Assembly: GCA_020348985.1 (NCBI GenBank)
Contig: CP070761.1
Span: forward strand, 1,651,227-1,708,364
Reading direction: 5' to 3'
Origin: Candidatus Thorarchaeota archaeon
Lineage (GTDB): Archaea; Asgardarchaeota; Thorarchaeia; Thorarchaeales; Thorarchaeaceae
Length of the DNA: 57,138 nt
Shown here: positions 2,295 to 44,629 of the stretch, one piece after another
Layout of the letters: each line of letters starts with the position of its first letter
Numbering within the stretch: the first letter of the stretch is position 1
The notes under the pieces: model-generated
Databases searched by the model: none
What the model was told of the DNA's origin: nothing
Seen by the model: only the letters and a program-made list of their open reading frames with translations
Translations under genes and position numbers: made by a program

Positions 2295-2318
2295 TATCGA
2301 GATTATTCGATAAATCGA
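2295..2318 (+). promoter_or_regulatory. putative ArsR operator, site A (before acr3)
   Basis: TATCGA-GATTAT-TCGATA is a perfect 6+6+6 dyad, followed by AATCGA as a third half-site, 34 bases before the acr3 start. Related sites stand at 4228, 5459 and 9550. The inverted-repeat size suits a dimeric ArsR/SmtB protein; the assignment is inference. Confidence 0.65.
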
Positions 2319-2351
2319 AAAACCAAGAGACGCGTTATGAGATGAAACATA

Positions 2352-3461
2352 TTGGGTGAATCTGAAACCGGTACCAAATCTGTGGTGGGCAGTCCAATAA
2401 CGGGCCTTTCTACACTCGACAAATTCCTGCCGCTTTGGATCATCTTGGCTATGGCCCTGGGTGTCTTGCTCGGCTATCTGGTACCCGGACTTGCCGCAGC
2501 ACTGGACTACTGGAGCATTGGGACCGTATCCATTCCCATTGCAATTGGTCTCTTGTGGATGATGTATCCTGTTTTGGCAAAGGTCAAGTATGAAGAACTG
2601 GGAAAGCTGAAAGGAGAGAAGAAGATGTTTGGGGTCTCCTTGACCCTGAACTGGTTGGTTGGCCCATTCCTGATGTTTGCCCTAGCCTGGATATTCCTAG
2701 CTGATCTCCCGGACTACCGAACTGGCATAATATTGGTAGGCCTTGCTCGGTGTATAGCGATGGTTCTAATCTGGAACATGATGGCAGGAGGATGTAGTGA
2801 GTCGTGCGCAGTTCTCGTTGCACTGAACTCAGTCTTCCAGATATTCATGTACAGCCCTGAAGCGTGGTTCTTTGTCACATATCTCTCTTCTATTGTATCG
2901 CCCGGAGCTGGCTCCGTTGTAGAGGTCTCGATTCTTGAGATTGCTTGGAGTGTCATCATCTTCCTTGGGATTCCACTAGCAGCAGGAATCGTCACAAGGT
3001 TCAGCCTGATGAAACGTAGGTCAAAAGAGTGGTACGACAAAGAGTTTGCACCAAAGCTGGGACCTTACGCTTTGATTGGGCTTCTATTCACGATAGTGGT
3101 CATGTTCTCTCTGAAGGGGGACACGATTGTTGCCCTTCCATTGGACGTACTCAGAATCGCTCTTCCACTTCTTTCATACTTTGTCATCATGTTCCTAGTA
3201 TCGTTTGGAGTCTCATACGCGATGAAGTTTACGTACGACAAGAATGCGACCATATCATTCACTGCAGCAAGCAACAATTTCGAACTGGCCATAGCTGTTG
3301 CAATTGGAGTGTTCGGTATTGGCTCGGGACAGGCACTTGCGGCTGTTGTTGGTCCTCTCATTGAGGTACCAGTCTTGGTCGGGTTAGTTTACGTTTCCAT
3401 GTGGCTGGGCCGACGATTCTACGGATGGACGCAAGAGGACTCAATCCCTGCTGAAACATAA
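2352..3461 (+). CDS. acr3: ACR3-family arsenite efflux permease
   Basis: 369 residues with about ten hydrophobic segments, a normal ACR3 length. Family hallmarks are GLARCIAMVLIWN with the conserved membrane Cys134 needed for As(III) transport in ACR3 proteins, LVALNSVFQIFMYSP, and FTAASNNFELAIAVAIGVFG near the C-terminus. It exports arsenite (or antimonite) across the cytoplasmic membrane using the ion gradient. The start is a TTG at 2352. The perfect dyad at 2295 and the nearby ArsR gene indicate arsenic-controlled expression. It is followed at once by a decayed DGC gene and an intact thioredoxin-like gene, probably as one transcript. Confidence 0.92.
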   Translation: MGESETGTKSVVGSPITGLSTLDKFLPLWIILAMALGVLLGYLVPGLAAALDYWSIGTVSIPIAIGLLWMMYPVLAKVKYEELGKLKGEKKMFGVSLTLNWLVGPFLMFALAWIFLADLPDYRTGIILVGLARCIAMVLIWNMMAGGCSESCAVLVALNSVFQIFMYSPEAWFFVTYLSSIVSPGAGSVVEVSILEIAWSVIIFLGIPLAAGIVTRFSLMKRRSKEWYDKEFAPKLGPYALIGLLFTIVVMFSLKGDTIVALPLDVLRIALPLLSYFVIMFLVSFGVSYAMKFTYDKNATISFTAASNNFELAIAVAIGVFGIGSGQALAAVVGPLIEVPVLVGLVYVSMWLGRRFYGWTQEDSIPAET

Positions 3462-3465
3462 GATA

Positions 3466-3845
3466 TTGCTCAACTGCTCTCGTGAGGTATGTTCTGGAGG
3501 CAATGTCTCTCGTGCTGCAACGCTTGAGGTCCTCCACCGTCTGAGACCAACTGCATCAGTGACCATTTGTCTTCCCCTTTTCCTAGCTGGAGATGAAGCA
3601 GAGAGGGAGTTTGCAAGGAATTCCTTCAAACCACAATTGATGGATGCGACAAGCTCTGTGCCGCTAAGGGCACGAAGAAGTATAGCAGTAAACCAGCCAT
3701 GGAGATGAATCAAGAGGAATATCTGGGCGAATCTTGCATAGATGTTGACGAAAGATGGAGAATAGAATGATGTAGTGAGCTAGTTGACAAAATCGCTCAA
3801 GACATTGCATCGTATATCGATCGTTTAAGAGATGAATTTAGGTGA
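3466..3845 (+). pseudogene. decayed DGC-domain (putative zinc-binding) protein gene
   Basis: The DNA is a clear homologue of the intact DGC gene at 11494. The shared parts include CSGG-N-SRAATLEVLH, RPT..VTICLPLFLAGDE and EREFAR. The original start region is replaced by a possible TTG five bases after the acr3 stop. Compared with the intact copy, one base is missing near 3628 (GCAAGGAATTCC against GCGAGAAGCTTCC), which destroys the DGC motif frame. A CGA codon has also become TGA near 3769. The last codons still align up to the TGA at 3843-3845. Confidence 0.85.
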
Positions 3846-3849
3846 TAAC

Positions 3850-4128
3850 ATGTCTGACAAGGTTCTGGTGATGGTATTCGTGGCTATGGGGGTATGCGGC
3901 TGTAGCCAGTCTGGATTCCTAGGGCGCATCTATGAAGCCATCAGGAAATATAGAAATATTGCTGATTATAGGGAATACCAAGCCGACAGTGACATAGCAA
4001 AGAAATACGGAATTGGTTACTGTGGTGTAGTGGTTAGCAGCAAATCAGTGGGAAGCAATCCCACCACAGCTAAGATTGAAGAAGCCATTCTCAAGGAGAT
4101 TAATCAACAAGGCACAGAAGCAATATGA
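3850..4128 (+). CDS. small thioredoxin-like protein (copy 1)
   Basis: 92 residues from ATG 3850; an in-frame ATG at 3832 would add six residues. The pattern is a hydrophobic first strand (VLVMVFVAMGVCGCSQSGFLG) with a C-x-C motif where thioredoxins have C-x2-C, then a helix (IYEAIRKY), a second strand with ADYREYQADSDIAKKYGI, and VGSNPTTAKIEEAIL at the end. This fits a glutaredoxin/thioredoxin fold redox protein, by inference. It is about 75% identical to the gene at 11889. Both copies follow a DGC gene, which indicates a duplicated two-gene module. Likely redox partner of the DGC proteins or of the arsenic system. Confidence 0.75.
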   Translation: MSDKVLVMVFVAMGVCGCSQSGFLGRIYEAIRKYRNIADYREYQADSDIAKKYGIGYCGVVVSSKSVGSNPTTAKIEEAILKEINQQGTEAI

Positions 4129-4227
4129 AGGATGAGCAGCATCCGCATCTTTTCTCACCTGACCTTGGACATAGCTTATACCTAAGTGCAAGTCTACAGA
4201 TGAATGAGGCGCAAGGAAAGATTGATT

Positions 4228-4251
4228 TATCGAGATATACAGTGAAGCACA
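4228..4251 (+). promoter_or_regulatory. putative ArsR operator, site B (before arsR)
   Basis: ATTGATTTATCGAGATATAC at 4221-4240 matches site C (5452-5470) almost base for base through TATCGAGAT. The right half-site is degenerate (CAGTGA). It lies 76 bases before the ArsR start, consistent with autoregulation, and overlaps a TTTAT stretch that could be the TATA element. Confidence 0.5.
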
Positions 4252-4326
4252 GCAATCCACTGAAGACAGTGAAGTGGTTTGAATGTTTCAGAGAACAGAT
4301 CTCACGATGTCAAGTTCTGACGAAGC

Positions 4327-4653
4327 ATGCTTGATTTGCAAAATTGGGGTGTCGTTTTGAAAAGAGACAAACAAGCTGAATGGAGAGTCCACTTCCACAA
4401 GGCCCTAAGTAATCCTGAAAGACTGAGAATAGTGGATTTCCTTGCAGACGGCGAGCAATGTCAATGCGATGTGTTTCCGCAAATTGGACTGTCTCAGTCT
4501 ACAGTCTCTTCATACCTCACTCAACTTGTGAGAGCCGGTATCCTGAATGTAAGGCGCGATGGCACCAGGAAGCTCTATAGTCTCAGTGACCCACGCATAC
4601 GCAGAATGATACAAGACATACGTGGTCTTGCTGCCGAAATGACAGCTACATGA
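4327..4653 (+). CDS. arsR: ArsR/SmtB-family metalloregulator
   Basis: 108 residues, a normal ArsR length. The winged helix-turn-helix covers ~21-100: FHKALSNPERLRIVDFLADGEQCQCDVFPQIGLSQSTVSSYLTQLVRAGILNVRRDGTRKLY in two joined pieces of the fold, with the recognition helix SQSTVSSYLTQL. The CQCDV motif at the start of the metal-binding helix matches the C-x-C-D of As(III)/Sb(III)-sensing ArsR (alpha-3 site). Such dimeric repressors leave DNA on binding metal(loid). It sits between the acr3 operon and the DUF5714/lipoate ligase operon, and TATCGA-type sites precede it and three neighbouring units. Regulator of this local regulon by inference. Confidence 0.92.
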   Translation: MLDLQNWGVVLKRDKQAEWRVHFHKALSNPERLRIVDFLADGEQCQCDVFPQIGLSQSTVSSYLTQLVRAGILNVRRDGTRKLYSLSDPRIRRMIQDIRGLAAEMTAT

Positions 4654-4723
4654 GGATTACTCCTCAGTGCGCTCAGTGGTTTTGCGAATGCAATGTGAGA
4701 CACAATTCAATCTTTTATTGTGA

Positions 4724-5347
4724 GTGTTAACCTTGATCATCAAAGACCTGGATCAGACTGGTATCACAACTGAGTTAGAACACGATGCGAATGGTAAGTT
4801 GAGGATTAGAAGTGTCATAAAACTTCAGCAAGGATCTTGTATTGGGATTGAGTCACTATGGAAACCAGATTACAGGAATTCGAATCCTGAGATGCTTGAG
4901 TCCAACATCCAAATTGGTGGCTTGGCCCTACCTTTAGCAAAGGCGCCAGCACTTTTGGCGCATAGAAATCTGATACAAGATGTAAAAGAGTGTCCCCATG
5001 AGGTCCAGACTTTGCCACATGGAGCAGAACACCCAAAAACCAGCTTGAACACAGTTCATTTGGCGACGCGTCATGACGGTGCTGAGGTTTTCCTAGACCC
5101 TTTATCTGCTGCTTTCTGGGCGCGTGACTGCAGGAGGGTGAAAGAAGTCAGTGTGGAATCAGCCGCTTTCGCTCTCAAGACAGACAGGAACAGTGTAGTT
5201 GAGAGCGCCACATGCGCCTCAGAAGAAACTTGGGAAATAATCAATGTAGTTCTTTCCATTTTGTCATTGGCTAAAGAACTTGATTCGCACGTTAGTCAAA
5301 TGGGCATATCCCTCAAGGATTTACGCACCAAGAGGCCAGAAACCTAG
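4724..5347 (+). CDS. hypothetical protein downstream of arsR
   Basis: 207 residues from a GTG at 4724, 70 bases after arsR and in the same direction, so probably cotranscribed. There is no signal peptide or membrane helix. I do not recognise a family. Visible features are a basic/polar N-terminal half, a Pro/His-rich centre (LPHGAEHPK), scattered Cys residues (~39, ~88, ~135, ~164) without an obvious cluster motif, and an amphipathic C-terminal helix (TWEIINVVLSILSLAKELD). The opposite strand also has open frames here, so coding status is probable rather than certain. Confidence 0.5.
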   Translation: MLTLIIKDLDQTGITTELEHDANGKLRIRSVIKLQQGSCIGIESLWKPDYRNSNPEMLESNIQIGGLALPLAKAPALLAHRNLIQDVKECPHEVQTLPHGAEHPKTSLNTVHLATRHDGAEVFLDPLSAAFWARDCRRVKEVSVESAAFALKTDRNSVVESATCASEETWEIINVVLSILSLAKELDSHVSQMGISLKDLRTKRPET

Positions 5348-5458
5348 TCTGGTGGTGCGATTTGCGTCGAATCCCATCAGCCACACTCTGTCAAGGCCAT
5401 ATCTTTGAGTAACCATAACCTAGCGAATATCACCTCACGACTCTCCGAAAAATTGATT

Positions 5459-5482
5459 TATCGAGATTATACGGTAAATGAG
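5459..5482 (+). promoter_or_regulatory. putative ArsR operator, site C (before the DUF5714/lipoate ligase operon)
   Basis: TATCGA-GATTAT-ACGGTA: the left half-site and spacer are identical to site A and the right half has two changes. It is preceded by AATTGATT exactly as at site B. It lies about 150 bases before the first gene of the operon (5609). Confidence 0.55.
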
Positions 5483-5608
5483 TGTGATGCATACCAGGAA
5501 TCTGAATCTTAGCACTCTGTGAAGGCAGTTGTTCTCTACACCATTGTCTTACAGAATGGTATCCATTATCACCGAGACCAGTGAGGCGCTTTGTGGAGGA
5601 AGGAATCA

Positions 5609-6331
5609 ATGAATGAAATTGGATTTCCTTGTGTGGTGTGTGGGAAGAGACTTCTTGAGACTCGAGGCGATGTCATCTCCTGCAGCTACTGCGGGCACGA
5701 CGAGAAGAGCGATTTCGTATGCAAAGACCGTCATTTTGTCTGTGAGACCTGTCGAACGTGCACTCCTACAGAGATAATCCTGAAAACATCCGTGGCTACA
5801 CCTACGGATGACTCTCTGTTTTTGGCGAATCTCCTTATGCATCATCCGGCAATACCAATGTCCGGCCCAGAACACCACCTTCTAGTCCCTGCGATTTTGC
5901 TGACAGCCACACATAATGCTGGGCATAGAATGGCTCTTGAATCACGGTTACGCCAAGCATTGAAACGTGCTAATAGATTCGGATTAGGGAGCTGTGCGAA
6001 TCTGGGTGCCTGCGGCGCGGCAATGGGCGTACCGATAGCAATCAGTCTGTTAATTGGCGCCGAATACACAAAACCAGAAGAGCGTAAGACCGTGCTTCGC
6101 GCTTCTGCCGTTGCCATGACCGCGGTTGCCAATCTGCCTGCACTCAGATGCTGCAAAGCATCAGTCTATTCATCTCTGAGTGTAGGAACTGATTTCATCA
6201 GGCGGGAGTTGGAATTAGGAGTCCCGCCGGTCCCTCATCCGACTTGTCATTTCGAGGGCAACAGCCTCGAATGTGTACGACAGGAGTGCCCATACTTCGA
6301 ACAGAGCAAATTGGACGGCGATTTGACGTGA
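5609..6331 (+). CDS. DUF5714 domain protein with N-terminal zinc-ribbon-like region
   Basis: 240 residues from ATG 5609, chosen over the TTG at 5591 because GGAGGAAGG (5595-5603) is a good ribosome binding site for it. The first ~50 residues carry Cys pairs (CVVCGK, CSYCG, CETCRTC), probably binding zinc or an Fe-S cluster. The remainder has GPEHHLLVPAILLTATHNAG, LGSCANLGACGAAMGVPIAISLL and CRQEC-like Cys at the end (CHFEGNSLECVRQECPY), which I associate with DUF5714. The biochemical role is unknown. It overlaps the next gene by four bases (GTGA), so it is co-translated with the two lipoate ligase homologues. Confidence 0.8.
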   Translation: MNEIGFPCVVCGKRLLETRGDVISCSYCGHDEKSDFVCKDRHFVCETCRTCTPTEIILKTSVATPTDDSLFLANLLMHHPAIPMSGPEHHLLVPAILLTATHNAGHRMALESRLRQALKRANRFGLGSCANLGACGAAMGVPIAISLLIGAEYTKPEERKTVLRASAVAMTAVANLPALRCCKASVYSSLSVGTDFIRRELELGVPPVPHPTCHFEGNSLECVRQECPYFEQSKLDGDLT

Positions 6332-7410
6332 AACAGGCGTCAGTAGTCCGATTCTATACTGGCCCAAATCCGGGCGGGATCTGGGACGCCGCTCTGGATG
6401 AAGCGATTCTTCGTGTTACGTGTGAGGACCACGGGCCTCTCACGGTTCGAGTTTGGTTGAATAAGAGTCCTGTTTTGGTTCTTCCAAGAAGCCCAATGCA
6501 AAAAGAAGGAGCTTTTATCCAAGAATGCAGCACAAGAGGAATTCATGTCACCCGCGGACTCAGTGGTAGAAGATGTCTCCTACATGGTCCTAGTGTCCTG
6601 AGCTTTTCCCTTGTTGACGAATCGAATGCTTTAGCATCTGGAGATCTAGAAAGAGAGATTTGCCAATTGCTCTCTCCTGTAATACGGGGAATCCAGTCGG
6701 AGATTCCAACAAGTGAGATTGCGTTTGACCAAGGCCATGTTATCGTAGGAGAATCGATTGTAGGTGCATTCAACACATCCTACTACTTCGACTATCTTAT
6801 GCTTCAAGGTGTTGTTCATGTTCATAGCAATCAACACTTCACGACCCTCAAGATTACGAAAGAGGGAACACGTCTTACGTGTCTTGATCAAATCCAGTCT
6901 CATGTTTCAAGCCAACATATCATGGATGCAATTAAGAAGTCAATTGCACAGAATCATGGATTGCAGATGACCAACATGCCTGCCAGTGTCAGAGTAACTG
7001 AACTCATGACTGAACTTCATCAGTGGAAATACACGAATAATGACTGGGTGTACCATCAATTAGAACCACTTGCATTGGGTCGAATTCTATTGGAATCTTA
7101 TCTTGCTTATCCACCTACTAATCGCTGCCGCGAAATAATAGCCATAGTTGATGAAATATCGAAGAAATATGCGGACAAAGTGGAATGTCGAAAATGGTTA
7201 CGAGGTCGGGGTTTGATGTCGTGGCTCAAGGGTGTGCCGCCGGGCCTTCGTCCAAGCGGGGGAGTTGTCCAAGCTTCCAAGAAGAATATCGTGCCAGCTG
7301 TAGTAGTGCAGGGGAATATCACACATGAGAGGAAAGTGCCGGTTTATGATGACCTCTGTGAAATCGTCGAGACGGCCTACAACGTGACATTTGGTGGGAC
7401 ATCTGAGTAA
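6328..7410 (+). CDS. lipoate-protein ligase paralogue with degenerate active site
   Basis: 360 residues from GTG 6328, which overlaps the upstream stop as GTGA; an upstream ATG at 6244 would overlap that gene by 88 bases. It aligns with the biotin/lipoate ligase fold: WDAALDEAILRVT and RVWLNKSPVLVLPRS match the N-terminal part of the next gene. The lipoyl-AMP loop RRCSGGGTVY is replaced by TRGLSGRRCLLHG, and the catalytic Lys of the K-x-S-G motif is replaced (GESIVGAF). The C-terminal ~120 residues include KYTNNDW, like the accessory C-terminal lipoate ligase domain. It is probably not a ligase on its own. A regulatory or accessory subunit of the neighbouring enzyme, or an altered transferase, is likelier. 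Confidence 0.8.
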   Translation: MKQASVVRFYTGPNPGGIWDAALDEAILRVTCEDHGPLTVRVWLNKSPVLVLPRSPMQKEGAFIQECSTRGIHVTRGLSGRRCLLHGPSVLSFSLVDESNALASGDLEREICQLLSPVIRGIQSEIPTSEIAFDQGHVIVGESIVGAFNTSYYFDYLMLQGVVHVHSNQHFTTLKITKEGTRLTCLDQIQSHVSSQHIMDAIKKSIAQNHGLQMTNMPASVRVTELMTELHQWKYTNNDWVYHQLEPLALGRILLESYLAYPPTNRCREIIAIVDEISKKYADKVECRKWLRGRGLMSWLKGVPPGLRPSGGVVQASKKNIVPAVVVQGNITHERKVPVYDDLCEIVETAYNVTFGGTSE

Positions 7411-8237
7411 TGGATACGACGTGGCGTGTTGTAATCTCAGAAGAAACTGACCCAACGTGGAATCTTGCAGTTGATGAAGCTATTCTTAGAAGTGTTATAG
7501 ACGACAACTCGCCAAACACTGTACGTATCTGGCGAAGCAGCGAGTCGGTCATAATAGGTCGCAGTCAAGATACAAGAGCGGAAGTAGACATTAGATTGTG
7601 TAATGAACTCAGCATACCAATTCTTCGACGTTGCAGTGGTGGAGGAACGGTATACATGGACCTTGGTAACTACAACTACTCTGTCATCGCAAATAGTAGC
7701 GTTTTCACTCAAGTGAAGGCAGTCCACCACATTGCACGTTTCATGTGTATGGCAGTAGTTAACCTGTTGTCGCGGCTGGATTGTGATTCAAGATTTGTTC
7801 CCCCTTCCAGCGTCTTCATTGAAGATTCGAAGGTTTCTGGATCTGCTCAGTACTTTCTCTACGAAGGCATTCTCCATCATGGCACGCTGCTGGTCAATGC
7901 AGACCTAGAACTGATGCAAGAGGTCCTGGCTCCAAATCCCACGCTTGCCAAAAGACTACGGTCTGTCCCAAGCGTATCAACCCCTGTCGTAAACCTGTCA
8001 TCGCTTTTCGGAAAGCAGTATCAATTCGAAGAGATAGCAAATCTACTGGTTGATGCAATCATGGGCACTTTGGGAGCACACAATTGGGATTTGGGACCGA
8101 CCAGCACGAGTGAGAACGAACTTACACAGCTGCTCTATGATACCAAATACTCGGACCCCTGCTGGCTTTTGGGAGTACAACGGCAAAAGCAGATTACTAT
8201 TGATTCGACAGCCCTCCCTACTAATAGAATCCAATGA
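7410..8237 (+). CDS. lplA: lipoate-protein ligase A
   Basis: 275 residues. ATG 7410 shares one base with the preceding stop (TAATG). All key motifs are present: NLAVDEAIL, RIWRSSESVIIGRSQD, the Gly-rich loop RRCSGGGTVYMDLGNYNYS (73-91), the catalytic Lys141 in DSKVSGSAQ, and LHHGTLLVNADL (155-166). A short C-terminal KYSDPCWLLG resembles the accessory domain. It would adenylate lipoate (or octanoate) and attach it to a lysine; the only lipoyl-domain substrate visible in the window is the fusion protein at 10271 (Lys204). Its operon partner is the degenerate paralogue upstream, a pairing like the two-part LplA/LplB or sLpl systems. Confidence 0.92.
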   Translation: MDTTWRVVISEETDPTWNLAVDEAILRSVIDDNSPNTVRIWRSSESVIIGRSQDTRAEVDIRLCNELSIPILRRCSGGGTVYMDLGNYNYSVIANSSVFTQVKAVHHIARFMCMAVVNLLSRLDCDSRFVPPSSVFIEDSKVSGSAQYFLYEGILHHGTLLVNADLELMQEVLAPNPTLAKRLRSVPSVSTPVVNLSSLFGKQYQFEEIANLLVDAIMGTLGAHNWDLGPTSTSENELTQLLYDTKYSDPCWLLGVQRQKQITIDSTALPTNRIQ

Positions 8238-8316
8238 GAATCTCAACTCATCTATCATCATATTCCGAGTTCATTCCGTGGGGCGGTTGTTGAGAGCGGC
8301 AATGGAGCGAAGTGTC

Positions 8317-8405
8317 ACCATCCTTAGGATGGGTAGAAGTGGAGGCTGGCGGTGGTAGGACTACGGGTAATTACCCAACTGTCATTGTTAAGCACGCTTT
8401 CTCTT
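8317..8405 (+). repeat. 16S-trailer repeat, full copy 3
   Basis: It has the same structure as copy 1: CCATCC-TTA-GGATGG hairpin (8319-8333), an identical linker through GGAGGCTGGCGGTGGTAG, the GGGTAATTACCC palindrome, and a T-rich end. It is very close to copy 1 up to about 8377 and then diverges. It lies 80 bases past the lplA stop. Confidence 0.8.
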
Positions 8406-8510
8406 TTGCAGTTATCATCTTTCAATAGACGATTCTATTCTGATTTCAAGCAAGTTCTCGAATTGTGCCTAATCCTTTGAGGGAACTATGTTGATATTCA
8501 GATGCAGTTT

Positions 8511-9101
8511 TCAATGATCATTTAATCCCTTTCCATTGAGAATTCTCTGAACATGTTTTTCAACCCTTGACTCCCGAGTTTTGGATTGCTTGGGTGCAGA
8601 AAAATATAGAATGTATGCTCTTTGCCGTCCCGGCGTCAATGCATCAAAAGCAGTTTTCAAGGCAGGGCTTTCATCTAATTTCCTTTGAAACTCTTCGGGA
8701 ATCATGAATTCTGTAGTCTTTTTGAAATCCACCTTCAAACCGGCTTTTTCTACTTCAACGGCTTCATGAATATAGACTTTCAAGATTGTTTCCATCTCAG
8801 CTATTTCCTGAACATTGGTGAACCGAATCTGGCGCACCGCCTGCGTATTTTCCCCGGGTTTGGATAGTATACCATTGGCATCTTCTATCAAGGCACCTTT
8901 GAAGAAACTGAGCACGCAGTATTCTTTGAATCCCCCTATTATTGCCACGTTATTTCCCTGAAACGTGTAACAAGGTTGACGCCACTTCAATTCTTCCGTC
9001 AGCCCACAGTCAAGTATGATCCTTCTCAATTCGCCCAATTCCTTCTGCCACTTTTGGGCTCTTGCCAAAAATTCATCAACCTTAGGATTCATTCTATTCA
9101 T
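8511..9101 (-). CDS. YdeI/OmpD-associated family protein with DUF1801 domain
   Basis: 196 residues. The N-terminal DUF1801-like region (KVDEFLARAQKWQKELGELRRIILDCGLTEELKWRQPCYTF) is followed by FIPEEF-like sequence and the C-terminal YdeI signature TPGRQRAYILYFSAPKQSKTRESRVEK with RILNGKGLND. The family is widespread in bacteria, and its biochemical role is poorly defined. It is more AT-rich than its neighbours, and the close match to the bacterial consensus suggests acquisition from bacteria (inference). It is oriented against the surrounding operons, between two copies of the trailer repeat. Confidence 0.88.
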   Translation of the reverse strand: MNRMNPKVDEFLARAQKWQKELGELRRIILDCGLTEELKWRQPCYTFQGNNVAIIGGFKEYCVLSFFKGALIEDANGILSKPGENTQAVRQIRFTNVQEIAEMETILKVYIHEAVEVEKAGLKVDFKKTTEFMIPEEFQRKLDESPALKTAFDALTPGRQRAYILYFSAPKQSKTRESRVEKHVQRILNGKGLNDH

Positions 9102-9159
9102 TTGTTGGCGCTCCGAAACGAAGTGAGCCTATATCTGCCTACAATTCCTATCTATTCTT

Positions 9160-9182
9160 TAACAAGGTATCCGTAGCGGAAG
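9160..9182 (+). repeat. fragment of the 16S rRNA 3' end
   Basis: TAACAAGGTATCCGTAGCGG plus AAG is identical to positions 64-86 of the genuine 16S end. The match breaks off before the CCTCC end, although TACCTCC follows 45 bases later. Too long to be chance; a duplicated rRNA piece. Confidence 0.8.
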
Positions 9183-9356
9183 TTACGAATAAAAGAAGAT
9201 GAGAGTCAATCTAGCCTTCCATCAATTACCTCCTGTGATTTCTCTCTCATAGAAGTAGAAGCAGATTGATCTCTCTTCAGAGAGAGAGGTTCGGGTCTTC
9301 GACGGGGCAGGCGGTGCATTCGAAGAAGTTGTCCATCGCCACATTCAGACTTGCCA

Positions 9357-9386
9357 CACTCATGCTGCCGAGCACCCTTTCATTTT
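9357..9386 (+). repeat. 16S-trailer repeat, 3' fragment (copy 4)
   Basis: CACT-ATGCTGCCGAGCACCC-like sequence followed by TTTCATTTT matches the end of copy 1 with few changes. It follows the 16S fragment at 9160 in the order seen at the real 16S locus. Confidence 0.6.
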
Positions 9387-9549
9387 GCATATGTTGTCCT
9401 GTGACTAGGCAGCATCCTCATTCTCTCCTCAAGGTCATCTTGAATCGAGATTCTGCCGTTCTGGTTGTCGAATGACTCCAAAGGCTCGACATCAAGATCC
9501 GGTAAACGACTTTCAAGAAACACGGCGCGCCTCCGCAGCAACACTGATA

Positions 9550-9573
9550 TATCGAAATAAACCGATAAATCGA
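9550..9573 (+). promoter_or_regulatory. putative ArsR operator, site D (before the HdrA-like/DGC operon)
   Basis: TATCGA-AATAAA-CCGATA followed by AATCGA matches site A in both half-sites (one change) and in the third AATCGA element. It lies 22 bases before the ATG at 9596, in a position to block transcription of the whole 9596-12182 operon. Confidence 0.6.
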
Positions 9574-9595
9574 ACATTGAAACGAGCTGATTGCG

Positions 9596-9970
9596 ATGAG
9601 TTCCGAAAGACCCGCGTTCATCATGTGTGTGTGTACGGGCAAGTGCCCGGGTTTTGGGAAGATGGATATTTGGGACTTCATCAATACAGTTCGAATGGCC
9701 CTTCCGGTTCAATATGGGATTATCCATCCCCAATTATGTGAGGAGGATGGTGATCGGTACCTGGAAGATGTTTTGAAACCCAATCAGAAGTTCTTCATTG
9801 GAGGTTGCGCTCCAACAATGCAGTACAAGCTCTTCCGGGATGCGTTCCAGAAAAGGAACCTGGACGTGAAAGGCGATCTTGTACCGATTGATGTGCGCGA
9901 CATGACTACCGAAGAGGCCATTGGTCGAGTGTCTGAGGAGCTGAAGAAACATGGATATCACCTCGAGTAA
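9596..9970 (+). CDS. HdrA-like N-terminal domain protein
   Basis: 124 residues. FIMCVCTGKCPGF near the N-terminus, GIIHPQLCEEDGDRYL in the middle, and FFIGGCAPTMQYKLFRDAF with VDVRDMT-like sequence toward the end follow the cysteine layout of the N-terminal domain of heterodisulfide reductase subunit A (CxC, then C, then a GC-P-M motif). The FAD domain of HdrA is absent, so this is a stand-alone domain, probably binding an Fe-S cluster. First gene of an operon with a ferredoxin, three DGC proteins and a thioredoxin-like protein. Operator site D lies 22 bases upstream. Probable electron-transfer component; partner unknown. Confidence 0.72.
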   Translation: MSSERPAFIMCVCTGKCPGFGKMDIWDFINTVRMALPVQYGIIHPQLCEEDGDRYLEDVLKPNQKFFIGGCAPTMQYKLFRDAFQKRNLDVKGDLVPIDVRDMTTEEAIGRVSEELKKHGYHLE

Positions 9971-10259
9971 TCCGAGTCCAGATTTGACCTTCATGGGCGT
10001 TGATCGGGAGAAGATTCCTTGGTGGCCAACCATTGACCTGCAAGATTGTGATGGGTGCAGTGGTGACTACGACTGTCTGAAGTTCTGCCCGCACGGCGTC
10101 TACAAGCCCCTTGAGAATTCCTCGAGAATTGCCGTTGAGAATCCCTACAACTGTGTGGTCTTTTGCCAAGCGTGTAAGAAGATGTGCCCGAAGAATGCTA
10201 TCTCCTTTCCCTCAAAACGAGCCATTCTCGATTTGATCAAGAATGAGCGTGCAAAATAG
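9951..10259 (+). CDS. dicluster [4Fe-4S] ferredoxin-like protein
   Basis: 102 residues from ATG 9951, overlapping the previous gene by 20 bases; ATG 9993 is an alternative start. Residues ~15-30 read FMGVDREKIPWWPTID, a conserved lead-in for this ferredoxin type. Two cluster motifs follow: C-x2-C-x5-C-x3-C (CDGCSGDYDCLKFCP) and CVVFCQACKKMCPKNAI. A small soluble electron carrier. Its placement directly after the HdrA-like protein and before the lipoyl-DGC fusion suggests it feeds or drains electrons for that system. Confidence 0.85.
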   Translation: MDITSSNPSPDLTFMGVDREKIPWWPTIDLQDCDGCSGDYDCLKFCPHGVYKPLENSSRIAVENPYNCVVFCQACKKMCPKNAISFPSKRAILDLIKNERAK

Positions 10260-10270
10260 GGTGGTGTTGG

Positions 10271-11107
10271 GTGGAACGAAAATACATCCTTCCATGCGCA
10301 GGATATGACCGTCCCGGCGGTCAGGTTTCAAGAGCCGCCGCAGAAAGACTTGCCATCATTCGTGACGATGTGATTATCGGAAGCATGGGGGCACTCTTCA
10401 AGGAACGTCCTGGTGAGATGCGTGACTATAGGACCTCCGATGTATTCTGTCTTGATGGTTGCGGAGAGAACTGCGCCTCTGAACTTGCACGTGCTAGAGG
10501 TAGGAATGACAGCACCAGCATTGTCATCCATGAGGTTGTGGGCTCAATTGAGAACTTCGAAGGAAAAGTAGACCGCTTGATGCAGTCTTTGACCCAAGAA
10601 ATTGACAAGACAAGGCCTAGGGTTTCGTCCAAGATCACTTCGGAACCTCCACATGAGATTGAGCTCATTGAGGAGAAGTTCGACAAGTTTACACTCAAGG
10701 TGGCCAAGGGTTTGAAATACTCTGACAATGACTTCTGGGTCAGCACTGAAGGAGAACAGGTTCGTGTAGGAGTCTCAGACTTCCTTCAACAGATGATGTC
10801 CGATGTGTACTTCGTGGAACTCGCTGAGATTGGCACACATGTAGACATGTTTGACGACGCAGGTCTGATGGAATCGACAAAGATTCTCGTCGAGATTATA
10901 GTCCCTGTGTCGGGGTCTATAGTAGAAGCCAATATCTCCCTTGAGGACAGCCCTGAGTTCATCAATGAGAGTCCATATGATAAAGGCTGGCTCTATGTCC
11001 TTAAGCCGGATGACATCAATGAACTGGAACTACTCCGAGATGCTCACGACTACATGACTTATGCCTTGGCGAAAGCAAAGGAGGAGATTGGAAAAAGGGT
11101 GGAGTAG
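10271..11107 (+). CDS. DGC zinc-binding domain fused to a GcvH-like lipoyl carrier domain
   Basis: 278 residues from GTG 10271. Residues 1-100 form a DGC domain: Cys9 in ILPCAGYDRPGGQVSRAAAE, then LDGCGENCASE with Asp62-Gly63-Cys64 and Cys68. Residues ~140-262 match glycine cleavage H protein: YSDNDFWVSTEGEQVRVGVSDF, VYFVELAEIGTHVDMFD, a lipoylation-type motif MESTK with Lys204, VPVSGSIVEANISLEDSPE, and INESPYDKGWLYVLK. The lysine, the PVSG turn and the EDSPE-type loop are all kept, so lipoylation is plausible. No glycine cleavage P or T proteins are in the window, which argues for a role outside glycine cleavage, as with LbpA of sulfur-oxidising Hdr systems. Fused to a metal-binding domain, it may carry sulfur, thiol or arsenic groups. 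The function is inference; the domains are visible. Confidence 0.85.
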   Translation: MERKYILPCAGYDRPGGQVSRAAAERLAIIRDDVIIGSMGALFKERPGEMRDYRTSDVFCLDGCGENCASELARARGRNDSTSIVIHEVVGSIENFEGKVDRLMQSLTQEIDKTRPRVSSKITSEPPHEIELIEEKFDKFTLKVAKGLKYSDNDFWVSTEGEQVRVGVSDFLQQMMSDVYFVELAEIGTHVDMFDDAGLMESTKILVEIIVPVSGSIVEANISLEDSPEFINESPYDKGWLYVLKPDDINELELLRDAHDYMTYALAKAKEEIGKRVE

Positions 11108-11110
11108 AGA

Positions 11111-11494
11111 ATGAAGAAAGTAGTAATTCCATGCAGTGGAATAGGAAAAGCATTTGGTGCTGTTGCACGTGAAGCAACGTATCTTTTGACCGACTCTGAT
11201 CATTCTAATGAATATGTGACAATATGCCTTCCATTGTTGATGACCGACGATGTAGAGTCCAAACAGAGGGTTACGGAATCCAATGTCTATACAGTTGATG
11301 GATGTCCAAAGCGCTGCGCATCAATCCTTGTTAGACATGCAGGGGGAAAACCAGTCATGGAGATAATGACGCCGAAGGTTCTTGCCGCTAACAAGGAACA
11401 CAAGCCCGAGACGGTTCTGAACATTGGCGATGGTGGTCAGCTGCTGGCAACAGACATAGTGAATCTAATTCTTAATCATGGAGATGACAAGTGA
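11111..11494 (+). CDS. DGC-domain (putative zinc-binding) protein
   Basis: 127 residues beginning MKKVVIPCSGIGKAFGAVAREATYLL. Cys8 and the motif TVDGCPKRCASILVRHAGG give the DGC Cys-x3-Cys arrangement seen in the neighbouring proteins. CLPLLMTDDVE matches the CLPLFLAGDE of the next gene. The family (DGC domain) is predicted to bind zinc and has no settled biochemical role. It starts three bases after the fusion protein and overlaps the next gene, so it belongs to the same operon. Possibly a free counterpart of the DGC half of the fusion. Confidence 0.82.
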   Translation: MKKVVIPCSGIGKAFGAVAREATYLLTDSDHSNEYVTICLPLLMTDDVESKQRVTESNVYTVDGCPKRCASILVRHAGGKPVMEIMTPKVLAANKEHKPETVLNIGDGGQLLATDIVNLILNHGDDK

Positions 11495-11898
11495 TGGCCT
11501 TCAAACCCAAGGTGGGTCTTATCTCTTGTAGTGGTGAGGCATGTTCCGGAGGGAATATCTCTCGTGCCGCGACACTTGAGGTCCTACACTATCTGAGACC
11601 AACTGAAACGGTGACTATTTGTCTTCCTCTTTTCCTGGCTGGAGATGAAGGAGAACGGGAGTTTGCGAGAAGCTTCCCTACAATCACAATTGATGGGTGC
11701 AGCAAACTCTGTGCGGCTAGGGGTACGGAAAGGTATAGCAGCACACCAGCCATGAAGATGAATCTAGAAGAATATCTGGGAGAATCCTGCACTAGCACTG
11801 ATGAGAGATGGAGACTAGAACGAAGTAGCGAGCTTGTCGATAGAATTGCTCAAGACATCGCATCTCATGTTAATCGTCTAAGAGAAGAATGGGGGTGA
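11494..11898 (+). CDS. DGC-domain (putative zinc-binding) protein
   Basis: 134 residues from ATG 11494, sharing one base with the previous stop (TGATG); GTG 11491 is also possible. Motifs are LISCSGEACSGGNISRAATLEVLH, VTICLPLFLAGDEGEREFARSF, and TIDGCSKLCAARG with the DGC Cys-x3-Cys, followed by a long charged C-terminal helix. It is the intact relative of the broken gene at 3466. Together with the next gene it forms the two-gene module that was duplicated behind acr3. Cytosolic, predicted metal binding; its role in the system is unknown. Confidence 0.85.
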   Translation: MAFKPKVGLISCSGEACSGGNISRAATLEVLHYLRPTETVTICLPLFLAGDEGEREFARSFPTITIDGCSKLCAARGTERYSSTPAMKMNLEEYLGESCTSTDERWRLERSSELVDRIAQDIASHVNRLREEWG

Positions 11899-12182
11899 AT
11901 CAAATATCCGATAAGATTCCAGTAATGGTGTTCCTTGCAGTGGGAGTTTGCAGTTGCAGCCAGACTGGATTCCTAGGGCGCGTTTATGAAGCCATCAGGA
12001 AATACAGAGATGTTGTTGACTATAGGGAATACTCCGCTGGAAGTGATATCGCAAAGAGATATGGGATTAGCTATCGTGGGGTCGTGGTTGGCAGCAAATC
12101 AGTAGGTAGCAATCCCACCACAGCAAGGATTGAAGAGGCCATTCTCAAGGAAATCGAAAAGCAAGACTTAGATTCAATGTGA
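11889..12182 (+). CDS. small thioredoxin-like protein (copy 2)
   Basis: 97 residues from ATG 11889 (overlap of ten bases) or from GTG 11895 (four-base GTGA overlap). It has the same layout as the copy at 3850: VMVFLAVGVCSCSQTGFLGRVYEAIRKY with a C-x-C motif, DYREYSAGSDIAKRYGI, and GSKSVGSNPTTARIEEAIL. It fits a thioredoxin-like fold with an unusual CSC active site. Last clear gene of the operon that starts at 9596. Probably a disulfide or metal/sulfur transfer partner of the DGC proteins. Confidence 0.78.
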   Translation: MGVNQISDKIPVMVFLAVGVCSCSQTGFLGRVYEAIRKYRDVVDYREYSAGSDIAKRYGISYRGVVVGSKSVGSNPTTARIEEAILKEIEKQDLDSM

Positions 12183-12325
12183 TGAATCTACGTGATCTAT
12201 TATACCGTGAGACACACTCCGTCTACTACTATGGAAGTGAATTCCCTTCCAACCTAACTGAATCTGCCAAGGCCCGATACTTCAACAACCACATTCTGAC
12301 GAATGTCAGTCTGCATTACGGGTAA
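12182..12325 (+). CDS. possible 47-residue protein ending inside the trailer repeat
   Basis: ATG 12182 shares a base with the preceding stop (TGATG). The frame reads MNLRDLLYRETHSVYYYGSE and stops at a TAA in the TACGGGTAATTACCC of the repeat at 12313. The composition is protein-like but no family is recognised. It may be a gene truncated by arrival of the repeat, or chance. Confidence 0.3.
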   Translation: MNLRDLLYRETHSVYYYGSEFPSNLTESAKARYFNNHILTNVSLHYG

Positions 12326-12362
12326 TTACCCACCCGTCACTTTTGAGCACCTGTTCATTCTT
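12313..12362 (+). repeat. 16S-trailer repeat, partial copy 5
   Basis: It contains TTACGGGTAATTACCCACC, then GTCAC and GAGCACCTGTTCATTCTT, matching the second palindrome and tail of copy 1. The first hairpin is missing. A further hairpin CTTGGTC-n10-GACCAAG (12429-12452) lies downstream. Confidence 0.7.
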
Positions 12363-12512
12363 CCGTCTGCTATTTGCGACTCCGGACTATTCTCATCGAT
12401 AAACAGAATTAAACTCACACACATTGATCTTGGTCAATCGCGAAGGACCAAGATTGCTTCAAACCCTCTTGAGAGCTTGATATCAAGTACATAAATGGCG
12501 AAATCTCTGCAG

Positions 12513-12545
12513 GTGCGTCTGACTAGGACGCACAAAACGAAAAAG
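12513..12545 (-). terminator. probable terminator of the ferredoxin gene
   Basis: Just past the stop of the minus-strand ferredoxin gene the transcript would read TTCTTTTTCGTTTT followed by a perfect 7-base-pair hairpin GTGCGTC/GACGCAC (12513-12533). The T-rich run is the archaeal termination signal; the hairpin may add to it. Confidence 0.45.
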
Positions 12546-12549
12546 AATG

Positions 12550-13269
12550 CTACGCTGTAACTACTCCCTTGACATTTTCCTTCAGTCTTGTTCCATCCCG
12601 ATCGATTCTTGAGATTATGCCCTTTAGAGTGTGCAGCAGACCCGCAAGATCTTCATCCAGTTTCCTATGAGTAAGAATCTTCTCGACATTCAAGAGAGCG
12701 AGCTGCGCTTCATAGATTGTATCATAAACCGTACTGGGATACTTGAGGATGTATTCCTCTGACAGAACATGCTGGATTAGATCCAACAACTCGCCTGTTC
12801 CATAAACCTTCATGTCAATGGCCATTTTGGGACACGCGGAAACGCAGACACCACAGCCATGACATCTCTCTTGACGAACAAACAGTGTTCTGTCCTCTAT
12901 GATCGGAGCTTTCCACGGGCACATTTCGGTGCATAGGCCACAAAGAATACAACCTCTAGCACCATCCATTCTTACTTCAATGGTTGATAGCAATGCAATC
13001 TCTTCAGCATCCAGAGTTTCCTTCGAATCCCCAAAAACAATTGGATCCGGCACCTTTGACTTAAGCTCATCTGGATCGTGAAGGATTGCAGTAGTGCTTC
13101 CTCTCTTTCTGAGCTCTCTCTCAATCCGAGAGATGTAGATTGTGCAAGCCTGGATCGTATTCTTCAATGAAACAAGCATGTGCTTGAGATCAACGTCTGG
13201 ATGTTCAGGGAGCTTTCTAGGAAGAAGGACCCTGAATTCATGTGTCCGCCATTTCAGAGTTTTACCCAT
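12550..13269 (-). CDS. dicluster [4Fe-4S] ferredoxin domain protein
   Basis: 239 residues. Central residues ~105-155 have two classical motifs, CILCGLCTEMCPWKAP and CHGCGVCVSACPKMAI, for two [4Fe-4S] clusters. The N-terminal ~100 residues and C-terminal ~85 residues are helical and charged, without recognised domains; the C-terminal part has repeated amphipathic helices. It is nine bases from the OsmC-like gene upstream, so the two form an operon that converges on the DGC operon. Likely an electron-transfer subunit; whether it works with the lipoyl-DGC proteins is inference from position. Confidence 0.83.
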   Translation of the reverse strand: MGKTLKWRTHEFRVLLPRKLPEHPDVDLKHMLVSLKNTIQACTIYISRIERELRKRGSTTAILHDPDELKSKVPDPIVFGDSKETLDAEEIALLSTIEVRMDGARGCILCGLCTEMCPWKAPIIEDRTLFVRQERCHGCGVCVSACPKMAIDMKVYGTGELLDLIQHVLSEEYILKYPSTVYDTIYEAQLALLNVEKILTHRKLDEDLAGLLHTLKGIISRIDRDGTRLKENVKGVVTA

Positions 13270-13278
13270 TATACCACC

Positions 13279-13710
13279 TCACCTATACCTTTGATCAACG
13301 CGAAGCCCCACTGAAAGTGTGACTTCCGGTGTGATCAACCCATTGTTAAGGAGGAATCTATCAACTTCATTCTGAAAGATCTGCTGAAGCGACTCCTCCT
13401 GCTTTCCCTCGGGCACGATGACCCGAGTCTGCACTTTGAGCGAGGTCAGATTCTTTTGCTCGGCCATCTTGCTTTTCGCATACTCGCCCATTGCATTCGA
13501 TTGGAGTTCTATCACTCCCACTCCAATGTCTTTCGTAGCCATCTCTAGAAGAAGATTAATGCAGGCCTCGCCAGCCGCCAAACACAAGTACTCTGAGTAG
13601 TCTGGATCGAAACATTCAGGCGCAACCGTCGAATAACGTAGAACGGGGGATTCCGAGTCTGTTGTTCTGACCTCGTGTTCACCAAGTTCATCTATTCTTT
13701 TCAACTTCAT
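13279..13710 (-). CDS. OsmC/Ohr-like protein
   Basis: 143 residues. The segment YLCLAAGEACINLLLEMATKDIG resembles the central OsmC helix with its active-site-type Cys, and VIELQSNAMGEY plus LTSLKVQTRVIVP fit the following strands. OsmC-like proteins act in thiol or peroxide chemistry, and some in sulfur transfer. Only one obvious active-site-type cysteine is placed in the helix; another Cys (ECFDP) sits near the N-terminus. Family assignment is moderate. It is the upstream partner of the ferredoxin gene in a two-gene operon. Confidence 0.6.
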   Translation of the reverse strand: MKLKRIDELGEHEVRTTDSESPVLRYSTVAPECFDPDYSEYLCLAAGEACINLLLEMATKDIGVGVIELQSNAMGEYAKSKMAEQKNLTSLKVQTRVIVPEGKQEESLQQIFQNEVDRFLLNNGLITPEVTLSVGLRVDQRYR

Positions 13711-14366
13711 ACGAAGTATGTCTTCCGTGTATATTCACCTCCATGACCAGAACCACCTCTTTTGACACAGACATCAATCGTCTCATTGATTGAGGTCTAC
13801 GTGTGGTTTAGGCAACAGAGGGTGAATTCATTCAGACCTTTGTTTCTGGCTCCTTCAATTACTCTTTGGAGAACCCTTGATGACATCTGTGCATCAAAGG
13901 ACTGGTTCTCATGTACATATTTCGATTGAAGTCTAATATATTTGATGAGTTATGAATCAAAAGAACACCAGAGAATAATGCACGATAAGCGACTCCTTCG
14001 TCATGAAGCTGTCCGTTTTGTGCCATAGGAACTCCGTTCTTGAAGAAGCCATATTTTCAACTAAAAAGCAACTCTTCGATTGCTGCCTATTTCAACAGAA
14101 TCCTTTCAGATGTGAGACTGGGGCAATTTCGGTCAGTTTCGCCTCGTCGTCGAGAGTGAAGACATCTATTATGGTTTCTGAAGCGTTTGCAGTCTCGAAC
14201 ATCACAAAGTCCCATCTTTGGGATGAGTAGAAGTGGAGGCTTACGGTGGTATAACTACGGGTAATTACCCAACTGTCACTGTAGAGCACCCTTTCATTCT
14301 ACATCAGTCAAGTTTGAGCTTTCGTTGAACTGCATGCTTATTACTAATCTCTCGCTCGGTTTTGTC
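13711..14366. other. intergenic region between divergent genes, with repeat and possible gene remnant
   Basis: About 650 bases. At 14211 lies a full copy of the trailer repeat. On the minus strand, 14092-14210 encodes FVMFETANASETIIDVFTLD, which looks protein-like and is cut off exactly where the repeat begins; it may be the remnant of a gene, but I recognise no family. The rest shows no supported gene. Confidence 0.45.
14211..14300 (+). repeat. 16S-trailer repeat, full copy 6
   Basis: CCCATC-TTTG-GGATGAG (first hairpin, one pair lost), the TAGAAGTGGAGGC linker, GGTGGTATAACTACGGG, the intact GGGTAATTACCC palindrome, and AGAGCACCCTTTCATT. It lies 67 bases before the flavoprotein start at 14367, so here it cannot be a simple downstream terminator. 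Confidence 0.8.
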
Positions 14367-39453: not shown

Positions 39454-40455
39454 GTGAAACGCGAAAGAAAGACTCTGGCGGCAATCTTTGTCGTCTGCAT
39501 CGTGGGTATAACGACTGGAGTAGTTATATACACCGGACAGACTCTAGGTAAGAGCTTGTTGACAGTGTCAACAACCACAAGCCTCTTCGATACTGGAGTG
39601 CTTGACACACTCAAGACCGAGTATGAGGCTAGTCATCCCGACATCATTCTGGCCTTCATATCAGCAGGCACAGGTATTGCGATCACCCATGCCAAGAACG
39701 GCGATGCAGATCTGATTCTCGTCCATTCTCCGTCGCACGAGAAGGCATTCATGGATGAGGGCTTTGGAGTCAACCGGAAAATACTCGCTTACAACTTCTT
39801 CACTATAGTGGGGCCAAGCGAAGATCCAGCAAACATTAGCGGAGTTGACGCGAGTACGGCGTTGTCTCGAATCTATGATTATGGTCAGAGCCTGAACTCG
39901 AGCATCTGGGTCACAAGAGATGATAACTCCGGGACGAACTCGAAAGAGAAACAGCTATGGGCTGCTGCAGGTTTTGACTATGAAACAATCAAGGAGGCCG
40001 ATTGGCTAGTTTCGTCCGGTACGGGAATGGGTGCAACATTACGAATGGCAACTGAACTCGAATTGTACACACTTTCTGACATCGGGACCTACTTGAAGTT
40101 CTTCGCTGATGGTCTTATTGACCTGCAGCAATTGGTTGTTCCCTCGGAGTCATTGCTCAATGTGTATAGCGCGATAGCTGTCAATGCGTCACGTGTTGAG
40201 GGTGCAAGATTCAATCTTGCGATGGACTTCATTGCCTGGTTGGTTGACAGTTCAGCTCAGGAGACCATCGGCAACTTTGGACTTGAGGACTATGGCCAAG
40301 CCCTTTTCCTTCCAGCCGTGGGGGTTATCGAGTCTCAGACATCCAATGAAATCTATGGTTGGATCCGAAGCTATGCATTCTTCGATTATGACGGCACGCT
40401 ATACGAGTGTCCTCCACCGTGGAGAGAAGGTGATTATGGACTGTATCAGTCCTAG
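39454..40455 (+). CDS. tupA: tungstate ABC transporter substrate-binding protein
   Basis: 333 residues from GTG 39454. An N-terminal signal/anchor helix (TLAAIFVVCIVGITTGVVIY) is followed by the TupA-type binding domain: VSTTTSLFDTGVLDTL, the oxyanion loop near AGTGIAITHAKNGDADLILVHSPSHE, WVTRDDNSGTNSKEKQLW and SGTGMGATLRMATE. The T-T-S and S-G-T-N motifs are those that hold tungstate in TupA. It catches WO4(2-) (or MoO4(2-)) outside the cell for the permease and ATPase encoded next. The gap to tupB is 18 bases. Confidence 0.93.
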   Translation: MKRERKTLAAIFVVCIVGITTGVVIYTGQTLGKSLLTVSTTTSLFDTGVLDTLKTEYEASHPDIILAFISAGTGIAITHAKNGDADLILVHSPSHEKAFMDEGFGVNRKILAYNFFTIVGPSEDPANISGVDASTALSRIYDYGQSLNSSIWVTRDDNSGTNSKEKQLWAAAGFDYETIKEADWLVSSGTGMGATLRMATELELYTLSDIGTYLKFFADGLIDLQQLVVPSESLLNVYSAIAVNASRVEGARFNLAMDFIAWLVDSSAQETIGNFGLEDYGQALFLPAVGVIESQTSNEIYGWIRSYAFFDYDGTLYECPPPWREGDYGLYQS

Positions 40456-40473
40456 CGGAGAGTAGGAAGTACC

Positions 40474-44132: not shown

Positions 44133-44629
44133 AGGATGAACATAGTCGAGATCAGAAGATATCAACAGGATTCGCAGTTCTTGTTGTCAGCGATTCTCGG
44201 ACCATTGAGACCGACAAATCAGGAAAGTTGGCTCAAGAGCTTCTAGTCAGGGAAGGACATTCCGTTGAGAGGTACGACATCGTGCGGAATGATGAGACTG
44301 AGATCAGGCAGACTGTGGAAACCTACCTTCGTAATTCCGCAATACGTGTGATTCTTACGAGTGGTGGAACTGGTGTTGGCAGAAAGGATCTGACTGCAAG
44401 CGTCCTAGAATCAATGTTTGACAAGACCCTGACCGGATTTGGTGAGCACTTCCGTCGCCTCAGTATCAAAGAAGTTGGGCTCGCCGCTGTGTATAGCCGC
44501 AGTACGGCCGGACTAATCGGAAGCACAGTTGTGTATTGTCTTCCAGGTTCTAAGAACGCAATGAAGACTGCGCTCAAGAAAGTAATCCTGCCGAGCATTG
44601 GTCATCTGATTTGGGAGGTTGACCGTTGA
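44129..44629 (+). CDS. moaB: molybdenum cofactor biosynthesis protein MoaB
   Basis: 166 residues of the MoaB/MogA family: VLVVSDSRTIETDKSGKLAQELL, VRNDETEIRQTVE, ILTSGGTGVGRKDLTASVLE (the molybdopterin-binding S-G-G-T-G-x-x-x-x-D motif), and VYCLPGSKNAMKTAL. In archaea MoaB adenylylates molybdopterin before metal insertion by MoeA, the next gene. Four-base overlaps with both neighbours. Confidence 0.95.
   Translation: MKDEHSRDQKISTGFAVLVVSDSRTIETDKSGKLAQELLVREGHSVERYDIVRNDETEIRQTVETYLRNSAIRVILTSGGTGVGRKDLTASVLESMFDKTLTGFGEHFRRLSIKEVGLAAVYSRSTAGLIGSTVVYCLPGSKNAMKTALKKVILPSIGHLIWEVDR

Follow-up and report, generated by a model that had tools for sequence, protein, structure and literature searches.

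What would a predicted lipoyl carrier and a domain related to heterodisulfide reductase be doing among genes for an arsenic-type regulator and exporter? The question is raised by a gene block in a 57,138-nucleotide stretch of Candidatus Thorarchaeota DNA (hereafter the window), whose source genome (G000) is one contig of 3.16 Mb. At the core of the block, at 9596-12182, six genes overlap or almost touch and are read from the sequence as one operon, which encodes a stand-alone HdrA N-terminal-domain protein (HdrA-N), a dicluster ferredoxin, a fusion of a DGC domain to a GcvH-like lipoyl domain, two free DGC proteins and a thioredoxin-like protein with a CxC motif. We find, from comparison of gene order, that the block is real and that its core is a conserved Asgard operon. 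Our preferred reading, to which we give a probability of roughly 0.45, is that ferredoxin drives a dithiol system, encoded by the operon, in which arsenic is reduced or carried for ACR3 to export. The link to arsenic rests on gene context, and the chemistry set out below is one that we infer.

A conserved core operon in Asgard archaea

The core genes of the window are as follows.

9596-9970, + strand: stand-alone HdrA N-terminal-domain protein, HdrA-N (profile search and model comparison)
9951-10259, + strand: dicluster ferredoxin (Pfam Fer4 matches)
10271-11107, + strand: DGC-GcvH fusion (Pfam GCV_H 108 bits, DGC 35.9 bits)
11111-11494, + strand: DGC protein 2 (PF08859, 51.6 bits)
11491-11898, + strand: DGC protein 3 (PF08859, 57.8 bits)
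11889-12182, + strand: thioredoxin-like CxC protein (CxC invariant in 18 aligned sequences)

A search of 227 Asgard genomes placed the HdrA-N gene in 31 of them, at 33 places in seven families, and all 32 places besides the window's own served as the comparison set. At 28 of these 32 loci the genes for HdrA-N, ferredoxin, fusion, DGC2 and DGC3 stand in the same order on one strand; the neighbourhood is kept in relatives, a check that had been set beforehand in the first-pass annotation of the window. Two of the exceptions (L090 and L076) are contig edges and a third locus partly reads N, while the fourth (L088), assigned to Odinarchaeum through an identical protein, has HdrA-N, ferredoxin and ArsR and lacks the DGC genes. 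The ferredoxin gene directly follows HdrA-N in 31 loci, the remaining one being a contig edge, and in 20 of the 32 a relative of the CxC thioredoxin is encoded no more than 2 kb from the core. The HdrA-N proteins of the Asgard loci are 51-83% identical to that of the window. For the fusion, whose nearest named relatives are from Thorarchaeota, identity is only 26-34% outside that group. A separate search of 59 genomes for the fusion, DUF5714 and a degenerate lipoate ligase found the full-length fusion in 10, and four genomes (G039, G042, G055 and G057) have an unfused version, DGC2-DGC3-GcvH, with thioredoxin-like genes nearby. In the open-access literature that we searched, no operon like this is described; the constituent families are known, and we found there neither their union nor a stand-alone HdrA-N with a link to arsenic.

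Several related arrangements were seen in passing. A DUF166-type gene follows DGC3 in seven loci outside Thorarchaeota (the copy at 9964-10689 of L074 scores 100.9 bits), and several family f2 loci encode a fourth, divergent DGC protein after the genes for ArsR and the CxC thioredoxin (8980-9459 in L069). A 282-residue DGC-GcvH fusion (P0114) is filed under an Acetobacterium metagenome-assembled genome and reflects either a true bacterial member or mis-binning of the contig. At 667-1149 of L035, a divergent GcvH-like protein with a GTEKMTQ motif lies beside a partial LplA gene and adjoins an unfused operon.

HdrA-N and its ferredoxin

The first gene had been labelled an HdrA-like N-terminal domain. 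Its 124-residue product has no Pfam match and scores 11.7 bits against NF041778 (cut-off 1400), but a profile of its family matches HdrA (7bkb_A, E 1.9e-4) and the best matches of its structural model are HdrA chains. Cysteines 11, 13, 17, 48 and 71 are invariant. The stand-alone family comprises 493 proteins at E<=0.001, and the names among the 120 matches listed span Asgard archaea to Chloroflexi. Three loci outside the phylum were read. In one archaeal genome (G281) the genes for HdrA-N, ferredoxin, ACR3 and ArsR are consecutive, while in G237 those for HdrA-N and ferredoxin lie opposite ArsR and an ACR3 that is 58% identical to that of the window; the third (G396) is taken up below. The minimal arsenic-linked unit would be HdrA-N with its ferredoxin, and the lipoyl-DGC part would be an Asgard elaboration.

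The predicted lipoyl carrier and its candidate ligase

Pfam matches agree with the earlier description of a lipoyl-DGC fusion followed by two free DGC genes. The fusion carries an N-terminal DGC domain (Cys 9, 60, 64 and 68) and a C-terminal H-protein lipoyl domain with a lipoyl lysine, Lys204, that is invariant in 54 of 54 sequences. The lipoyl half of the window fusion contains no cysteine; 9 of 10 aligned rows from fusions outside Thorarchaeota have one, in NDCW, and none is invariant there. In a tree of 22 sequences, fused and unfused lipoyl domains separate from canonical GcvH with moderate support (93/86), and the fusion falls below the curated GcvH cut-off (TIGR00527, 109 bits versus 115.85). 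A canonical GcvH is encoded elsewhere in the source genome, beside a GcvT-like gene (read by eye).

Upstream of the core lie three further genes.

5591-6331, + strand: DUF5714 protein (Pfam 145.3 bits)
6244-7410, + strand: degenerate lipoate-ligase-like protein (PF21948, 23.2 bits, cut-off 27)
7410-8237, + strand: intact lipoate-protein ligase LplA (PF21948, 158.1 bits)

The degenerate protein lacks the RRxSGGG and KxSG stretches, which we take to be lipoate-ligase motifs, and the intact one has both, in keeping with the description of the pair in the first-pass annotation. The further expectation that the fusion co-occurs with DUF5714 and the degenerate ligase is not supported. Among the 59 genomes the degenerate ligase is confined to the source genome at E<=1e-8, DUF5714 is present in 13 of the 59 genomes and in just one of those bearing the fusion, and the placement of both between ArsR and the core is unique to the window among compared loci. 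By its distribution, DUF5714 is a local partner only and is not conserved with the operon. The intact LplA is a candidate ligase for the fusion protein, judged from its position and relatives: the closest of these (40% identical) follows ArsR in the G021 operon, other ligases are 31-35% identical, and these two are the only operon-linked LplA genes among the Thorarchaeota loci. Each fusion genome has two to five ligase-domain matches, some of them partial, so that another ligase may serve the fusion.

An arsenic-type neighbourhood

The regulator and exporter named at the outset are both borne out by Pfam.

2352-3461, + strand: ACR3-type (SBF family) exporter (PF01758, 173.3 bits)
4327-4653, + strand: ArsR-family repressor (HTH_5, 43.2 bits)

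The window ArsR contains Cys 45 and Cys 47, a CQCD pair, and no other cysteine; a CxC pair in ArsR proteins is an As(III)-type site. An ArsR gene lies within 1.5 kb in 24 of the 32 loci, divergent from HdrA-N in 16 of these, and the nearest ArsRs have the CxC pair in 25 of 25 cases. ACR3 is found within 115 bases of the core and on the same strand in five Thorarchaeota loci (L017, L020, L021, L023 and L089), and the ACR3 of the window is 77-82% identical to those directly preceding HdrA-N in L021 and L023.

A TATCGA sequence had been proposed to tie four transcription units of the block together. The hexamer by itself is frequent (39 copies in the window versus 22.9 expected) and is the half-site of an 18-bp palindrome, TATCGA-N6-TCGATA, of which three copies stand before genes.

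2295-2312: palindromic operator-like site, 0 mismatches, upstream of ACR3
5459-5476: probable operator-like site, 2 mismatches, before the DUF5714-LplA unit, spacer identical to that of 2295-2312
9550-9567: operator-like palindrome with 1 mismatch, 28 bases before the core operon

On this sequence evidence two units are firmly tied by the palindrome and a third probably. The site at 5459 is weak alone, as two-mismatch sites also arise by chance, yet it shares its spacer with the site before ACR3, which makes LplA a probable member of the regulon in this window. The fourth unit falls away, since the copy at 3815 lies within a DGC pseudogene remnant and that at 4228 is only a half-site. With up to three mismatches allowed, the window holds 28 sites versus 20.6 expected, a number reached in 5 of 100 shuffles, so that there is no clear enrichment. 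Twelve other Thorarchaeota loci (143,879 bp) contain 11 sites with at most one mismatch, spread over 10 loci, where 50 shuffles gave a mean of 0.38 and a maximum of 4. All 11 fall in windows upstream of genes, namely HdrA-N (9), ACR3 (1) and TrxB (1). Across the source genome, the six qualifying sites other than 2295 and 9550 are all inside reading frames. The protein binding the palindrome would be ArsR.

Sulfur-type neighbours

The first-pass annotation had noted that HdrB, HdrC, TusA and DsrE are absent. No Pfam match to HdrB or HdrC was found among the 20 window proteins scanned, and TusA and DsrE are likewise missing from the window, yet they occur beside the operon elsewhere. In three loci from two genomes of one family, f2 (L074, L075 and L083), the opposite strand beyond the operon carries genes for TusA, a YeeE-family Sulf_transp protein, a pair of DsrE proteins and a single DsrH (12237-12967 in L074 and 10313-12694 in L075). 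Pfam, run on members from L074 and L075, gave 73.7 bits for TusA and 296 bits for Sulf_transp in L075 and identified the DsrE genes in L074. The same DsrE pair lies beside the CxC thioredoxin gene of the unfused version (L031 and L034). These neighbours suit sulfur chemistry, and the role of the operon may be in sulfur, selenium or thioarsenic metabolism; thioarsenate would reconcile the arsenic-type with the sulfur-type neighbours.

They also lend weight to the main competing explanation, a role in the handling of sulfane sulfur (or selenium). Persulfide would then ride on the lipoyl arm, much as in sHdr-LbpA, electrons would be moved by HdrA-N and ferredoxin, the ArsR-family protein would be a sensor of reactive sulfur, and ACR3 would be a passenger. 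There is a precedent for a sulfur-handling lipoyl carrier in the lipoate-binding protein LbpA of the sHdr-LbpA system (PMC6067878), and shdr genes are controlled by an ArsR-type repressor (PMC10451225). Persulfide-sensing relatives of ArsR use two distant cysteines (PMC10451225), whereas only 2 of the 25 nearest ArsRs have a cysteine later than the CxC pair that all of them share. The TusA-type neighbours are limited to 3 of the 32 loci, on the opposite strand, and ACR3 adjoins the core in the five Thorarchaeota loci and HdrA-N in two genomes outside the phylum. Together with the lack of an HdrB or HdrC match, these features lead us to regard a sulfur role as unlikely, if a serious contender.

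Other features of the window

The block also contains, or is flanked by, the following genes.

1601-2212, + strand: FeS203, a PF04060 Fe-S domain protein with an N-terminal half that is weakly TBP-like (Pfam FeS 41.8 bits)
3466-3831, + strand: remnant, with a frameshift, of a third DGC gene that duplicates 11491-11898 (DGC match of 17.4 bits, under the cut-off)
3832-4128, + strand: thioredoxin-like CxC protein, duplicate of 11889-12182 (CxC invariant in 18 aligned sequences)
4724-5347, + strand: uncharacterised protein (no Pfam or NCBIfam match)
12550-13269: second ferredoxin (Pfam; outside the conserved unit)

The segment 3482-4128 is a duplicate of 11534-12182 (79.4% DNA identity over 650 bp) in which the DGC copy is broken and the CxC thioredoxin copy is open; both thioredoxin-like genes had been recognised before. 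This duplication was overlooked in the first-pass annotation, as was FeS203, a conserved neighbour of the operon found in six compared loci (L017, L019, L089, L031, L034 and L035). Relatives of gene 4724 adjoin the thioredoxin gene in three Thorarchaeota loci (L024, L025 and L026). Both ferredoxins are recovered by Pfam, but the second lies outside the conserved unit, as does the gene at 13279-13710. The latter had been called OsmC-like, a label that we drop: it matches no Pfam family at E<=1 and no NCBIfam model.

A short dispersed repeat (GGTAATTACCCA...GAGCACCCTTTCATTCT) flanks the block at 9365-9390, 12317-12361 and 14256-14300, the two long copies being 87% identical. Farther away, a fused MoaE-MoaC gene (by eye, 43248-44132) lies within a molybdenum-cofactor cluster (42256-45840), which adjoins a tungstate/molybdate-type ABC transporter (by eye, 39454-42200).

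A proposed mechanism and its weight

What can be read from sequence with assurance is the gene order, the invariant lipoyl lysine and cysteines, the CxC ArsR and the Thorarchaeota palindrome. This conserved context supports the earlier idea of a lipoyl-thiol carrier, still a predicted one, set among arsenic-type genes and paired with ferredoxin-like proteins, and suggests how an arsenic system might work. Binding of As(III) to its CxC pair would make ArsR leave the palindrome. Lys204 would be lipoylated by a lipoate ligase, in this window LplA. The dicluster ferredoxin would hand low-potential electrons to an Fe-S cluster on HdrA-N, and this cluster would reduce the lipoyl disulfide in a manner akin to ferredoxin:disulfide reductase. 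The linker of the fusion would let the lipoyl arm visit the DGC sites. Oxidised (thio)arsenic would be reduced to As(III), or As(III) would be held, by the dihydrolipoyl arm acting with the CxC thioredoxin and with cysteine sites on all three DGC modules; As(III) would then exit via ACR3. A more specific form, in which the lipoyl arm powered by ferredoxin through HdrA-N is an Asgard arsenic or thioarsenic reductase, and HdrA-N with ferredoxin a wider archaeal arsenic module, is tentative and somewhat doubtful.

Several observations count against the arsenic proposal, the sulfur-type neighbours among them. The spread is patchy, at 31 of 227 genomes, and neither of the other two genomes assigned to the window's genus, one of which is 98% complete, has the system. 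ACR3-like exporters lie within 6 kb in 14 of the 32 loci, fewer than half, and two of these (L024 and L069) are weak SBF matches; the window ArsR is 4.9 kb from the core; few loci have an operon-linked LplA; and the G396 locus has HdrA-N and two ferredoxins with no ars genes in the 13 kb read. The palindrome was not seen upstream of the operon in Asgard loci other than those of Thorarchaeota, on which the role as ArsR operator therefore depends. Finally, LMWP-family proteins, potentially ordinary arsenate reductases, are encoded in 16 of 19 genomes.

These last proteins, and the many invariant cysteines, would also fit a thiol-repair system or arsenite buffer. In that case the dithiols of the DGC and lipoyl domains would serve as sink or chaperone for As(III), the ferredoxin side would do no more than keep these dithiols reduced, and arsenate would not be reduced. 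Dihydrolipoyl dithiols bind As(III) tightly. A dedicated HdrA-N and ferredoxin exceed the electron supply that a passive sink needs, however, and we consider a buffer quite unlikely.

If the arsenic proposal is correct, lipoate, the classic victim of arsenite, would have been recruited as a working cofactor of arsenic detoxification. The lipoyl group is a normal target of arsenic poisoning, and to our knowledge lipoate has few roles beyond central metabolism and the oxidation of sulfur, to which a lipoyl carrier controlled by an arsenic-type regulator would add a further setting. In the archaea nearest to eukaryotes, the system would couple the detoxification of metalloids directly to anaerobic electrons from ferredoxin. 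It would also offer a functional clue to the stand-alone HdrA-N family, and a role that can be tested to DGC domains, whose name comes only from a motif.

Comparison with known systems

Two soft-metal systems offer faint resemblances. The CxC thioredoxin at 11889 is weakly like SaoT of the selenocysteine-assisted organometallic (SAO) system (26.1 bits, cut-off 65), with no other Sao match among ten proteins scanned with NCBIfam; this comparison draws on a review and on the NCBIfam models. The ferredoxin at 9951 scores 32.3 bits (cut-off 99) against HgcB of HgcAB mercury methylation. With CxC ArsRs also occurring as Cd/Pb sensors, the operon could be imagined to act on another soft metal (Hg, Cd, Sb or organometals) and to share a stress island with ArsR and ACR3. 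Both matches are far under their cut-offs, no Mer, Hgc or Sao family rises above cut-off among the proteins scanned, and the ACR3 family exports As(III) and Sb(III), all of which makes this very improbable.

The block resembles ars operons in its CxC ArsR, ACR3-type exporter and thioredoxin-like protein. An arsenate reductase is usual in such operons, though not universal; the block has none of the LMWP type and carries a lipoyl carrier, HdrA-N and ferredoxin instead. The window has no LMWPc match, against two elsewhere in the source genome, and no ArsC-type match among the 20 window proteins scanned with Pfam, other ArsC types not having been searched genome-wide.

As in sHdr-LbpA, a GcvH-like protein with a lipoyl lysine is encoded beside an HdrA-related protein and a regulator of the ArsR family, and in this window there is a lipoate ligase as well. 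Unlike that system, the operon has no HdrB or HdrC, only the N-terminal domain of HdrA, and a lipoyl domain fused to DGC, with ACR3 and a CxC ArsR nearby. It also lacks the pair of extra cysteines that LbpA carries, except in some archaeal proteins (PMC6067878).

With the glycine cleavage H-protein, the fusion shares the fold and lipoyl lysine, but it is joined to DGC, forms a separate tree group and has no GcvT or GcvP alongside. HdrA-N, likewise, matches the HdrA of CoB-CoM heterodisulfide reductase in fold and cysteine pattern over the N-terminal domain; it differs in having neither the FAD domain nor built-in ferredoxin domains, the ferredoxin being encoded instead by a separate gene.

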